Source: Sporichthyaceae bacterium
Lineage (GTDB): Bacteria; Actinomycetota; Actinomycetes; Sporichthyales; Sporichthyaceae
Length of the DNA stretch: 46,612 nucleotides
NCBI GenBank assembly: GCA_036493475.1
Contig: DASXPS010000017.1
Span: 1-46,612, forward strand
Reading direction: 5' to 3'
Shown here: positions 10,407 through 17,437 of the stretch, piece after piece
Numbering within the stretch: the stretch's first letter is position 1
How the letters are laid out: each line of letters starts with the position of its first letter
Notes under the pieces: generated by a model
What the model saw: the letters and a program-made list of their open reading frames with translations, nothing else
Database searches by the model: none
Told to the model about the DNA's origin: nothing
Translations under genes and position numbers: made by a program

Positions 10407-10482
10407 CGTTTCTGATTGCCGGTCAACGTTTTGCGGCGCTCCCGCGTCGTGGCTCGACAGCTAATTACGTCCAGGGGATCAC

Positions 10483-10602
10483 ATGCACACGACGGTTCTG
10501 ACGGTGGCTCTGCTGGCGATGCCGGCGGGCTGCGCCCAGGGTGGTACGGCTGGTGAGGCCCCCGTCGACGCCTTCCGGGCCTCCGCGGCCCAGCTCGGCT
10601 AG
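10483..10602 (+). pseudogene. 39-codon lipoprotein-type ORF, probably a truncated gene
   Basis: ATG 10483 follows AGGGGA at 10473-10478. The product has a signal peptide TVLTVALLAMPAGC with cysteine 17 at the end of a lipobox-like MPAGC, then AQGGTAGEAPVDAF, and stops at TAG 10600-10602. The same frame continues past that TAG for another 28 codons to a TGA. A 22-residue mature lipoprotein is unusually small, so a gene cut short by a nonsense change or decay is likely. The surrounding gap (10407-10870) otherwise holds only the leader element before the first binding-protein gene. Confidence 0.35.
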
Positions 10603-10763
10603 CGGGCCGTCACCGCGCACGCGCTCAGTTCGGCGGCCGTCAGGGGTATCCGGCCGGTTCGCATTCCCGGGATACTCCCAGCTACCTGATCAAGGTGGTA
10701 GCCGCGGGGTCCAGGCACTGTCCGCGGCCGAAAAACGTGAAGCACGGGTCGTGTCGATGATCT

Positions 10764-10824
10764 TTGCGTAGCCGGATTACGTACTTGTACGGCAGACGTC
10801 GCAGCGGCTGCACGCCTAATTTCA
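10764..10824 (+). promoter_or_regulatory. conserved leader element, copy 1
   Basis: This 61-nt element matches the one at 12093-12153 at about 43 of 61 positions without gaps, although other non-coding sequence around the two genes does not match. Fixed parts are TTGCGTA at the left end, TTGTACGGCAGAC in the middle and CGCCTA with TTCA at the right end. CGTA-CTTG-TACG forms a short inverted repeat. It ends 47 bp before ATG 10871. It may be a promoter plus operator or a structured 5' leader; I cannot say which. Confidence 0.55.
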
Positions 10825-10870
10825 GAGCCATCCCGCCGGGTGCCGACCCGGTGGGCGCCGAGGAGGCGTG

Positions 10871-11998
10871 ATGACCCATCAGTGGAGTCCCGAAGCCCAT
10901 ATCGACCGCCGCACCCTGTTCCGTGGCGCCGCCGGGTTGGGCCTAACCGCCGCTGCCGGAACGCTGCTGCCCGCCTGCGGCTCGGGGGGCCGCGACCAGA
11001 TCGAGAGCCGGGCAGCCGGGACGACGCCCGTGACGCAGGCGGGGGCCGGACCGACGCTGGAGACGACCAGCGTCCGACTGCACGCCTCCGCCCCTGTCAC
11101 TTGCGTCGCCGCCCAGTACATGGCGGAGCCGTTCCTGCGGGAGCAAGGATTCACCGACGTGCAGTACCCGCCGGGTCTTGCCAAAGACCTGCCTGAGCGC
11201 TTCCGCTCCGGGGATATCGACATCGGTCTGGGATACGCCGCCTTCTTCCTTCCGATGATCGAGGCCGGCGCGCCCCTGGTGCTGCTCGGCGGGGTCCACG
11301 TGGGCTGCTGGGAGATCATCGCTACCGGTGACATCAAGTCGTTGCGCGACTTCAAGGGCAAGACGGTGTCCATCGGCGGCCTTACCTTCACCGACGGCAT
11401 CTTCATGGCGATGACCCTGGCCAGCATCGGCCTCGATCTGCACAAGGACGTCAAGGTGGTCAACTACCCACCGACTGAGCACGCCCGGCTCCTCTCCTCC
11501 GGTGAGGTCGACGCGGTGGTGGCCTTCCCGCCGCTGTCCAACGACCTGAAGGCCAAGAACATCGGCCACGTGGTGATCAACTCCATGACCGATGCGCCCT
11601 GGTCGAACTACTACTGCTGCACCGTGGCGGTGCAACGAAGCTGGATGGAGAAGAACCCGGTGGCCACCAAGGCCGCGCTGCGGGCGATCCTCAAGGGCGC
11701 CGACGTGGTCGCCAAGGACCCCGACGGGACCGCACAATCCATGGTCGCTCATGGCTACACCGCCAACGAGGCCTACGCCCGGCAATCTCTGCACGAGATG
11801 CCGTACGGCATCTGGCGGGACTTCGAGCCTGCCGACAGCGTGCGGTTCTACGCGCTGCGCCTCAAGGAGGCGGGACTCATCCACAGCACCCCGGAGCAGC
11901 TCATCAAGCGGGGAACGGACTTTTCCTACCTGGCGGAGCTGAAGCAAGAACTTGGCCCAGCGCCCCAAGGTGGCGGAACCCATGTCCACCACTCCTGA
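10871..11998 (+). CDS. NitT/TauT-type substrate-binding lipoprotein, paralog A
   Basis: About 375 aa. ATG 10871 is preferred over GTG 10868 because AGGAGG ends at 10866. The N-terminus is a Tat lipoprotein signal: DRRTLFRGAAG, a hydrophobic stretch, and lipobox LPAC. The mature part is an NMT1/SsuA-like periplasmic binding fold: TSVRLHASAPVTCVAAQYMA, a GDIDIGLGYAAFF strand, GVHVGCWEI, FKGKTVSIGG and the PWSNYYCCTVAVQRSWMEK stretch with a CC pair. From memory this resembles a widespread family of stand-alone NitT/TauT-like binding proteins; ligand unknown. The C-terminus adds a short GGGTHVHHS tail that paralog B lacks. No permease or ATPase gene is nearby. It starts the block leading to the histidine kinase. 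Confidence 0.85.
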   Translation: MTHQWSPEAHIDRRTLFRGAAGLGLTAAAGTLLPACGSGGRDQIESRAAGTTPVTQAGAGPTLETTSVRLHASAPVTCVAAQYMAEPFLREQGFTDVQYPPGLAKDLPERFRSGDIDIGLGYAAFFLPMIEAGAPLVLLGGVHVGCWEIIATGDIKSLRDFKGKTVSIGGLTFTDGIFMAMTLASIGLDLHKDVKVVNYPPTEHARLLSSGEVDAVVAFPPLSNDLKAKNIGHVVINSMTDAPWSNYYCCTVAVQRSWMEKNPVATKAALRAILKGADVVAKDPDGTAQSMVAHGYTANEAYARQSLHEMPYGIWRDFEPADSVRFYALRLKEAGLIHSTPEQLIKRGTDFSYLAELKQELGPAPQGGGTHVHHS

Positions 11999-12056
11999 GC
12001 AGAGCTGGGTCAGCCGCCGCAACCTGCTGAAGCGGCAATTAGGTCCTGTGCCTTGA
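11982..12056 (+). pseudogene. 24-codon remnant of a gene start overlapping paralog A
   Basis: ATG 11982 has AAGGTGG nearby upstream and lies in another frame inside the last codons of the preceding gene, overlapping it by 17 nt as downstream operon genes often do. The product begins MSTTPEQSWVSRRNLLKR and then QLGPVP before TGA 12054-12056. The start looks like that of a real protein: either a twin-arginine signal (SRRNLLKR) or the cytoplasmic head of an ABC permease (RR...LGPV). Nothing follows. I infer that a gene, possibly the missing transporter permease, was lost by deletion here, bringing the second leader and paralog B next to paralog A. Confidence 0.4.
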
Positions 12057-12092
12057 CCAAGTCGGGCTCATCACCCGGGCTCGTCATTGTCA

Positions 12093-12153
12093 TTGCGTAC
12101 CTGCGGGCCGTATTTGTACGGCAGACAGCCGGACGGCTTCCCGCCTAGCTTCA
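12093..12153 (+). promoter_or_regulatory. conserved leader element, copy 2
   Basis: Second copy of the 61-nt element, ending 53 bp before ATG 12206. Here the inverted repeat is one pair longer (CCGTA-TTTG-TACGG), and AGCC-GGAC-GGCT gives a second short hairpin to its right. TTGTACGGCAGAC is identical to copy 1 in all 13 positions. Confidence 0.55.
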
Positions 12154-12205
12154 CCACCATCGATCACGACTTCTGCCGCTTCTCCCACCTCACGGAGCGA
12201 GGCAC

Positions 12206-13300
12206 ATGATGACGCAACAGTGGAATCCCGATGCCCGTCTCGACCGTCGCACCCTGCTCCGTGGCGCCGCCGGGTTCGGCCTGGCAGGTGCCGCCGCGAC
12301 GCTGCTGCCCGGCTGCTCCTCGAACGGCAAGGACCAGGTTGCGAGCCGGGCGGCGGCGGTGATCCCGGGGAAGCAGTCGGCGGCCGGGCCGGCCCTGGAG
12401 ACGACCAGCATCCGCCTGCACTCCATCCCGCCGGCCATCTGCATTGCCGCCGAGTACATGGCGGAGCCGTTCCTGCGGGAACAGGGGTTCACCGACGTGC
12501 AGTACACGCCGTATGCGTCCAAGGACCTGCTCGCGCACTTCGCCGCCGGGGACATCGACTTCGGCATCGGGTACGCCGCGGCCTTCATCCCCCAGATCGC
12601 CGCCGGCGCACCCCTGGTGATGCTCGGCGGGGTCCACGTGGGCTGCTGGGAGGTCTTTGCGACCGGCGACATCAAGTCGATGCGCGACTTCAAGGGCAAG
12701 ACGGTTGCGATCACTGGCCCGACTTTTACCGACGGCATCTTCATGGCGATGACCCTGGCCAACGTCGGCCTCGACCTGCGCAAGGACGTCAAACTGGTCA
12801 CCTACCCACCGACCGAGTTCGCCCGGCTTCTGTCCTCGGGTGAGGTCGACGCGGTGGTGGCCTTCCCGCCGACCTCCAACGACCTGACGGCCAAGGGCAT
12901 CGGCCACGTGGTGCTCAACTCCATGACCGATGCGCCGTGGTCGGGCTACTACTGCTGCACCGCGGTGGTGCACCGAAGCTGGATGGAGAAGAACCCAGTC
13001 GCCACCGAGGCCGCGCTGCGGGCGGTGCTCAAGGGCGCCGACGCGGTCGCCAAGGATCCCAGCGCAGCTGCCCACACGTTGGTCGCCCACGGCTTTACCC
13101 CCAACGAAGGCTACGCCCACACGGCCCTCCACCAGATGCCGTACCACATCTGGCGGGACTTCGACCCTGAGGACAGCGTGCGGTTCTACACCCTGCGCCT
13201 CAAGGAGGCGGGAATCATCGACCGCACCCCCGCGCAGATCATCAAGCAGGCAACGAACTTCTCGTACCTGGCGCAGCTGAAGCTTGAGTTGGGGGGCTAG
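12206..13300 (+). CDS. NitT/TauT-type substrate-binding lipoprotein, paralog B
   Basis: A 364-aa close paralog of the preceding binding protein, alignable over its length apart from the C-terminal tail. It has the Tat signal DRRTLLRGAAG with lipobox LPGC, then TSIRLHSIPPAICIAAEYMA, GDIDFGIGYAAAF, GVHVGCWEVFA, FKGKTVAITGP and PWSGYYCCTAVVHRSWMEK. Differences cluster where ligand could be contacted: SIGGLTF versus AITGPTF, and PGLAKDLPERF versus PYASKDLLAHF. This suggests related but different ligands. ATG 12206 (or 12209) follows GGAG. The kinase gene begins 59 bp downstream on the same strand. Both binding proteins should be lipid-anchored outside the cytoplasmic membrane, where the kinase sensor domain is also exposed. 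Confidence 0.86.
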   Translation: MMTQQWNPDARLDRRTLLRGAAGFGLAGAAATLLPGCSSNGKDQVASRAAAVIPGKQSAAGPALETTSIRLHSIPPAICIAAEYMAEPFLREQGFTDVQYTPYASKDLLAHFAAGDIDFGIGYAAAFIPQIAAGAPLVMLGGVHVGCWEVFATGDIKSMRDFKGKTVAITGPTFTDGIFMAMTLANVGLDLRKDVKLVTYPPTEFARLLSSGEVDAVVAFPPTSNDLTAKGIGHVVLNSMTDAPWSGYYCCTAVVHRSWMEKNPVATEAALRAVLKGADAVAKDPSAAAHTLVAHGFTPNEGYAHTALHQMPYHIWRDFDPEDSVRFYTLRLKEAGIIDRTPAQIIKQATNFSYLAQLKLELGG

Positions 13301-13359
13301 CCATCCGCGCTCGGGAAGGCCTTGAACGCTCGGCGCGAGGCGGCGCCCTGGTACGCCTC

Positions 13360-15665
<2,306 letters not shown>

Positions 15666-15669
<4 letters not shown>

Positions 15670-16082
15670 GCGAGATGGATACGACCGGTGCGCTGGTGCT
15701 CATCGTGGAGGACAACGTCAAGAACATGAAGCTGGCGCGTGACCTGCTCACCTACCACGGGTTCCGCACCCTGGCGGCCGGTAATGCAACCGACGGGATC
15801 GCGCTGGCCCGGGAGCACTGCCCCGACCTCGTGTTGATGGACATCCAACTCCCCGACATGGACGGCACGGCGGCGCTGAAGGAGCTGAGAGCGTCGCCCG
15901 TCACTGCCGGGTTGCGGGTGGTGGCCCTCACCGCCTTCGCCATGCGCGAGGATGAAGAGCGCCTCCGCTCCGCCGGCTTCGACGGCTACCTGGCCAAGCC
16001 GATCGACGTGCGTGAGTTCCCCGGCCAGATCCGCCGGTTCTGCGAACGGGGTCTGCCGACCCGAGACGAGGAGCAGAGATGA
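15666..16082 (+). CDS. single-domain response regulator (CheY/DivK-like)
   Basis: A 138-aa protein that is one receiver domain. The acidic pair is in VLIVEDN, the phospho-acceptor is D59 (VLMDIQLPDMDG), the conserved Thr is in VVALTAFAM and the Lys in GYLAKPIDV. There is no output domain, so it probably passes phosphate or acts by protein contact. GTG 15666 overlaps the kinase stop as GTGA, with GGAGG at 15655-15659, and its own stop overlaps the next gene as ATGA: clear translational coupling of all three signalling genes. Confidence 0.92.
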
Positions 16083-17434
16083 AGGCGATGTCCCGCATCC
16101 TGGTGGTCGACGACACCCCGGCGAACGTCAGGCTGTTGGAGGCCGTCCTGCTGCCTCGGGGGTACGACGTGCTCTGCGCCGGCTCTGGGGAGGAGGCACT
16201 CGAGTTGGTGGCCAAGGAACGACCCGACCTGGTGCTCCTCGACCTGCTGATGCCCGGCATGAACGGCCACGAGGTGTGCCGGCGGCTGCGGGAGGACCCG
16301 GCCACCGCCACCCTGCCGGTGGTCATGATCACGGCCAGCGGGGCCGGGGAGAAACTTCAGGCCCTCGAGTCTGGGGCCGACGACTTCGTCACCAAGCCTT
16401 TCGACCAGGCCGAGCTGCTGGCCCGGGTCCGCTCCCTGCTGCGGGTCAAGGAGTACCACGATCTGATCGAGGCTCAGGGTGTCGAACTGGCCGATCTGAA
16501 CCGGACGTTGACCGCCCGGGTGGCCGATCAGGTGGGAGAACTCGAGCGCCTGGGCCGGCTGCGGCGCTACCTCTCGCCGCAGGTGGCCGAGCTGTTGGTG
16601 TCCTCGGCCGACGACACTGTGACCCGCAGCCCCCGCCGCGAGGTGGCGGTGCTCTTCTGCGACCTGCGGGGGTTCACCGCCTTCTCCGAGCAGTCCGAGC
16701 CCGAGGAGGTGATGGCCGTCCTGGCCGAGTTCCACGAGGCGGTCGGGCCGGTCATCAATAGCTTCGGTGCCACCGTCGGGTTCTTCGCGGGTGACGGGCT
16801 CATGGTGTTCTTCAACGACCCACTGCCCTGTCCGAACCCGTCCGAGGCGGCCGTGCGCCTTGCGCTGGCCATGCGCGAGGCGACCGCGGAACTGGTCCGG
16901 AGCTGGGATCGGCTCGGCCGCGAACTCGGCTTCGGCGTGGGCATCGCCTTCGGCTTCGCCACCCTCGGAGAGGTGGGTTTCGACGGTCGCTACGACTACA
17001 CGGTCGTGGGCAACGTGGCCAACCTCGCCGCCCGACTCTGCGACGAGGCCGCCGCGGGCGAGATCCTGGTCAGTGGACGGGTCCAGCTGGCCGTGGGATC
17101 CCTCGCCCGGACCGAGCCGGCCGGCGACTTCACCCTGCGGGGCTTCCAGCGACCGGTGCCCGCCCACCGGGTGACGGGCCTGACCGAACCTGAGGGCACG
17201 GCGTCGGGCAAGGTCGGCGCTGCGACCGCGCCGGGTCTCGGGGCGCTCACCACCCGGGAGCGGGAGGTGGCCCGGCTGGCCGTCCAGGGCCGGACCGCCC
17301 CCGCCATCGCCCGCGAGCTGTTCATCGGCGAACGGACCGTGGAGAGCCACTTGGCCCGTACCTACGCCAAACTGGGCGTCGACTCCAAGCTGGACCTCAT
17401 CCGGCGAGCTGTCGAACTGGGCCTCGCTGACTAG
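16079..17434 (+). CDS. REC-nucleotide cyclase-LuxR HTH fusion regulator
   Basis: A 451-aa three-part protein. Residues 1-125 are a receiver with D55 (LLDLLMPGMNG). A helical linker (about 130-180) leads to a class III nucleotide cyclase domain (about 185-360) with both metal aspartates, D195 (FCDLRGFTAFS) and D239 (FFAGDGLMVFF), and the transition-state pair N315/R319 (NLAARL). The substrate-specifying lysine usually found four residues before the second Asp is F235, and the partner position is T308, so base preference and activity are uncertain. Residues about 385-450 are a LuxR/GerE helix-turn-helix (LTTREREVARLA, ERTVESHLARTYAKLGV). The combination allows phosphorylation to control a cyclase and DNA binding in one chain. 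ATGA overlap with the gene before. Confidence 0.9.
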   Translation: MKAMSRILVVDDTPANVRLLEAVLLPRGYDVLCAGSGEEALELVAKERPDLVLLDLLMPGMNGHEVCRRLREDPATATLPVVMITASGAGEKLQALESGADDFVTKPFDQAELLARVRSLLRVKEYHDLIEAQGVELADLNRTLTARVADQVGELERLGRLRRYLSPQVAELLVSSADDTVTRSPRREVAVLFCDLRGFTAFSEQSEPEEVMAVLAEFHEAVGPVINSFGATVGFFAGDGLMVFFNDPLPCPNPSEAAVRLALAMREATAELVRSWDRLGRELGFGVGIAFGFATLGEVGFDGRYDYTVVGNVANLAARLCDEAAAGEILVSGRVQLAVGSLARTEPAGDFTLRGFQRPVPAHRVTGLTEPEGTASGKVGAATAPGLGALTTREREVARLAVQGRTAPAIARELFIGERTVESHLARTYAKLGVDSKLDLIRRAVELGLAD

Positions 17435-17437
17435 GCG

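Follow-up and report, generated by a model that had tools for sequence, protein, structure and literature searches.

Two neighboring genes for secreted, NMT1/THI5-like binding proteins, found in a 46,612-nucleotide stretch of DNA from a Sporichthyaceae bacterium (the window), are each preceded by a copy of the same 61-nucleotide element. This repeat is not due to chance, and we consider it reasonably likely that the two stretches are the 5' flank of a binding-protein gene that was copied in tandem, the duplication having included about 107 bp 5' of the gene. Judging from its sequence, the flank probably carries a promoter, and a promoter or operator within the shared element is a fair guess; the main rival to a residue of duplication is an operator maintained by selection. 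As a duplicated upstream region, the element is a real but ordinary repeat that matters little beyond this locus. In the portions of the literature covered by our search, we recognized no publication on this cluster or element.

Table 1. Features of the binding-protein locus, in window coordinates
Feature	Position	Strand	Remarks
Element copy 1	10764..10824	+	Matching run 10761-10832; 43/61 identical to copy 2
Palindrome TACGTAC-TT-GTACGGC	10778..10793	.	Imperfect 7-2-7; 5/7 pairs; at least 5/7 in 69% of the window's 61-nt stretches
Candidate promoter 1, CAGACG - 18 nt - TAATTT	10793..10822	+	Putative, by eye; -10 TAATTT at 10817-10822
Spacer 1	10833..10867	+	Unlike spacer 2; GC-rich 10-bp hairpin at 10832-10855
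Binding protein 1, NMT1/THI5-like	10868..11998	+	PF09084, PF13379; twin-arginine-type N-terminus by eye
24-codon ORF MSTTPEQSWVSRRNLLKRQLGPVP	11982..12056	+	Tentatively, what is left of a third gene for a secreted protein
Element copy 2	12093..12153	+	Matching run 12090-12161
Palindrome GCCGTAT-TT-GTACGGC	12107..12122	.	Imperfect 7-2-7; 6/7 pairs; equally good in 15% of the window's 61-nt stretches
Candidate promoter 2, CAGACA - 18 nt - TAGCTT	12122..12151	+	Putative, by eye; -10 TAGCTT at 12146-12151
Spacer 2	12162..12205	+	Unlike spacer 1
Binding protein 2, NMT1/THI5-like	12206..13300	+	Pfam domain scan
Hybrid histidine kinase	13360..15669	+	HAMP, HisKA, HATPase, two receiver stretches
Single receiver domain protein	15639..16082	+	Domain scan
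Receiver - nucleotide cyclase - LuxR/GerE protein, supposed regulator	16079..17434	+	PF00072, PF00211, PF00196

Our recount bears out the ungapped agreement of 43 of 61 positions between 10764-10824 and 12093-12153 reported in a preliminary description of this DNA, and the block described there as identical is indeed so, with TTGCGTA and TTGTACGGCAGAC matching at 10764 and 12093 with 0 mismatches. The best ungapped run is somewhat longer, with 50 of 72 positions identical between 10761-10832 and 12090-12161, and its score of 28 is far above the highest value among 300 dinucleotide shuffles (15); with gaps allowed, the upstream regions score 64, where the best of 1000 shuffles reaches 37. Further 5', the likeness between 10407-10760 and 11999-12089 is at shuffle level (a score reached by 221 of 300 shuffles), such that the match begins at 10761/12090 as expected for the edge of a duplication. 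The element is free of coding signal: the differences between its copies are evenly spread over codon positions, which led us to reject a coding remnant there even though two reading frames cross it.

Each copy of the element precedes one member of a duplicated gene pair, with 73% protein identity and 82% DNA identity over 363 codons, and 79% identity at 156 fourfold sites. Measured against this pair, the earlier view that selection on the element is likely finds no support: at 70% identity the element does not exceed the fourfold sites, and the probability of at least 43 matches in 61 at the fourfold rate of 0.788 is 0.95. The element is thus no more conserved than near-neutral sites. Third-position identity along the genes is 70% in codons 1-80 and 101-140, 62.5% in codons 281-320, and 85% in codons 141-280, where the greater likeness would fit some gene conversion. 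Because the element's 70% equals that of the less-alike coding stretches, we prefer a residue of duplication. Promoter regions get copied along with tandemly duplicated bacterial genes, and in relatives the binding-protein genes often stand in tandem arrays, so duplication is usual for these genes; their median gap is 43 nt (106 neighboring pairs, the window's own included), compared to 207 nt here.

We propose that an ancestral binding-protein gene and the roughly 107 bp preceding it were copied in tandem as one unit within the slot between a NUDIX gene and sdhB, and that both copies would have diverged since. If the flank holds the gene's promoter, each copy would have kept a promoter of its own, with RNA polymerase starting from TAATTT or TAGCTT, each 18 nt after CAGAC(G/A). 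Streptomyces promoter motifs are reported to be a -10 TANNNT and a -35 NTGACC (PMC4895711); by eye, both candidate -10 hexamers fit TANNNT, and the -35 match is partial. A scan with the sigma-70 consensus found no promoter. The center of the palindrome would then lie near -43, where an activator could sit, yet under a simple duplication the palindrome need have no function.

The spacers between the element and the start codons do not follow the rest of the copied unit. Earlier spacer lengths of 47 and 53 bp are close to ours, with the likely starts giving 46 nt (ATG 10871) and 52 nt (ATG 12206), or 43 nt for the first spacer if the alternative start GTG 10868 is used. The spacers had been said not to match, and this holds: their local score of 12 is equalled in 217 of 300 shuffles, the level of chance. 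Their identity is 10 of 35 positions (P about 4e-6 if 67% is expected), although a neutrally diverging spacer of 35-44 nt inside the copied unit should keep about 65-79%. A residue of duplication would leave the rest of the copied flank equally alike, and the spacer mismatch is too strong for the same clock as the rest of the unit. It can reflect one local replacement, or an older divergence with a selected element. Either a separate event befell the spacer, or the element was held by selection while conversion between the genes kept their coding parts young; the latter option requires that the coding parts were made alike by conversion. Under the duplication that we favor, at least one of the copies probably had its spacer replaced or scrambled. 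Shortly 5' of the start of binding protein 1, and absent before binding protein 2, is the GC-rich 10-bp hairpin at 10832-10855. We considered this hairpin as a mobile repeat and rejected that possibility, since it occurs just once genome-wide when up to 3 mismatches are allowed.

The strongest alternative is that the element is a selected promoter/operator. In such a scheme, the regulator encoded in the cluster itself (16079-17434) would bind the GTACGGC palindrome through its LuxR/GerE tail and drive both binding-protein genes in a form of autoregulated sensing; we hold this to be possible but doubtful. The regulator is encoded in this very cluster, and within the data searched both the element and the regulator's LuxR tail were seen only here. 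Both TTGCGTA and TTGTACGGCAGAC are unchanged between the copies, whereas the spacers agree no better than chance, yet a 13-nt identical run within 61 nt arises with a probability of 0.14 at 70% identity and 0.44 at 78.8%. The palindrome's 7-2-7 layout shares its geometry with the BldM homodimer site TCACcCgnncGgGTGA (PMC4125116). Against this, palindromes like these are common by chance, with 6 of 7 pairs reached in 15% of the window's 61-nt stretches, and in 53% when any center of 0-6 nt is allowed. The preliminary description reported CGTA-N4-TACG in both copies with an extended outer pair in copy 2, and this is correct: the outermost bases pair as C-G in copy 2 (CCGTATTTGTACGG) but are A/G in copy 1. 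We further find an inner C-G pair in copy 1 that is missing from copy 2. The changes between the copies therefore make one pair and break one, and show no covariation.

Searches for the element elsewhere returned nothing above control. Within the bacterium's own genome, a search for the bipartite pattern that allowed up to 3 mismatches finds the two copies and no other, and a pattern around the palindrome (CGTAYTTGTACGGCAGAC, up to 3 mismatches) gives 6 matches including the two copies, against 8 for the reversed control. An operator would recur before further target genes, but the other genome matches are at control level, and there is no copy of the element before the kinase or regulator genes. 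Across the other 392 genomes of the class, the element matched at 18 places, one each in 18 genomes, with 2-3 mismatches each, whereas the reversed pattern gave 28 hits (a total counted by hand from the table). The element is absent from 92 fetched loci (960 kb, 19 of the loci surrounding distant matches only), where the best place agrees at 27 of the 43 agreed positions, the same as the best reversed control. A motif search, as suggested earlier for a check, yielded no further copies above control in this genome or its class; the nearest binding proteins among the matches listed are at most 50% identical. An apparent excess of CGTA-N4-TACG upstream of binding-protein genes in relatives proved unconvincing on inspection: of 8 such sites outside the window, 5 are YDY codons inside the preceding gene (by eye), 2 are one intergenic site in two Sinorhizobium americanum strains, and 1 (in locus L102) is unplaced. 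Residual identity from duplication with no conservation in other species, the outcome named at the outset as refuting selection, is close to this result, and falls short of proof because no close relatives were found.

The cluster sits between a NUDIX gene, recognized by Pfam, and sdhB, and an orthologous locus was not found in the relatives examined. In the three family relatives with both flanks in one stretch (L137, L138 and L139; L140 has the sdh side alone), other genes lie between NUDIX and sdhB, with product names other than NUDIX read from translations. The slot of a genome of the same genus (L137, 7926-12810) holds, by its translations, a branched-chain-type ABC transporter set, and those of two other family relatives consist of 1.3-1.9 kb with a hydrolase-like ORF. 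The region 10407-17437 is thus a variable slot whose content differs within genus and family. No match to the binding protein was found in the other 4 family genomes (E 0.001). With at most 5 first-look candidates scored per genome, such that a relative may be missed, it has no match in the other 392 class genomes (E 1e-20), and in a phylum sample 19 of 395 other genomes have matches at 1e-10, all of them 25-31% identical. Closer relatives, at most 50% identical among the matches listed, come from rhizobia, Microvirga, Rokubacteria, Deltaproteobacteria and others. A scan of named genomes with two window proteins alone gave no relative, and with rhizobial proteins added gave 68 loci (from the best 80 of 94 matches). 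Viral contigs gave no confirmed relative.

Upstream of and between the two binding-protein genes, several small ORFs drew our attention. A decayed third binding-protein gene was hinted at by a twin-arginine-like SRRNLLK in the 24-codon ORF, but DNA alignment gives no support: the likeness of 11999-12089 is at shuffle level against binding protein 1 (61 of 300) and binding protein 2 (170 of 300), and an apparent gapped match was lost on shuffling. Across 12 comparisons of upstream pieces with three genes, the lowest value was 13 of 300, obtained when element 1 together with its spacer was compared to binding protein 1, and we do not count it as signal. A short lipoprotein-like ORF (MHTTVLTVALLAMPAGCAQGG...) at 10483-10602 ends early, 5' of element copy 1. 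Pfam searches at E of up to 1 with four small ORF translations found nothing in three; the lipoprotein-like ORF has a match at E 0.33, below the cut-off.

The less usual part of the locus is its LuxR-tailed receiver-cyclase. Among 37 regulator homologs (E 1e-40; the window and the loci then compared), a GerE tail occurs only in the window's own protein; of the 36 others, 2 are truncated where their locus stops and 2 represent a single record. Among 386 genomes of the phylum, 11 others have a regulator homolog (1e-40), and none of these matches extends past residue 396 of 451; in 4 of these regulator neighborhoods, the fetched stretches yielded no binding protein of the NMT1/THI5-like family. 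Five proteins scanned between 10407 and 17437 include no permease or ATPase, which suggests a possible role of the binding proteins in sensing instead of uptake. A more specific proposal is that a locus-specific two-part operator, TTGCGTA plus the GTACGGC palindrome, arose together with the LuxR tail fused to the receiver-cyclase regulator, such that a widespread sensory cluster that elsewhere probably acts through nucleotide signaling would here directly control its own binding-protein genes. We regard this proposal as improbable. Were an operator reading true, it would show a cyclase-output signaling module gaining a direct DNA output and target sites together, and would provide a defined site for testing binding.

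Two further readings place the function of the element in the transcript. A structured RNA leader, for instance a riboswitch or attenuator within the 5' UTR of each gene, had been suggested earlier; the element's position before the genes would fit this, and copy 2 does contain a small hairpin, CCGTA-TTTG-TACGG; the whole leader of copy 1, with the 10-bp hairpin in its spacer, also folds slightly better than shuffles (z -1.42; 21 of 200 as good). The whole leader of copy 2 has a z of 0.37, however, and the folds of the 61-nt elements do not surpass those of shuffles (z 0.21 and 0.03) and differ between copies. Together with the lack of covariation in the palindrome, this makes an RNA leader very improbable; Rfam has no family at gathering score within the window. 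A leader peptide would come from a TTG-started ORF that runs through each element (with YLYGR in both) and whose TGA overlaps the start of the binding-protein gene, so that translation would be coupled. This reading is equally hard to credit: each frame stays open as far as the start codon and closes there, but the TGA is forced by the GTGATGA/ATGATGA start, and the differences number 5-7 at each codon position in all three frames, an even spread that gives no sign of protein constraint.

The cluster shares its overall composition with rhizobial and other clusters in which NMT1/THI5-like binding proteins stand in tandem with a histidine kinase, a receiver and a receiver-cyclase; the binding proteins are 36-50% identical and the receiver-cyclase is homologous. 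On three annotated plasmid stretches, such binding-protein genes have a kinase gene, a receiver gene and a further response-regulator gene as neighbors, and the last of these is a receiver-cyclase in both plasmid cases scanned. The regulators examined in these clusters, in contrast, lack the LuxR tail, and the distance between neighboring binding-protein genes there is mostly in the tens of bases. In the one rhizobial kinase that was scanned, GAF domains were recognized but no receiver, and three rhizobial clusters include an SCO-family gene. As a DNA site, the palindrome resembles the group I sites of BldM, a LuxR-type response regulator of Streptomyces: these also have two 7-nt halves and a 2-nt center upstream of genes (PMC4125116), with the sequence TCACcCg rather than the GCCGTAC seen here. 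The palindrome of this locus is present in two copies for which no regulon was found. The likeness to promoters copied with tandem genes lies elsewhere: apart from a spacer that has lost all likeness inside the copied unit, both situations present a short upstream stretch before each paralog that has diverged about as much as near-neutral sites.
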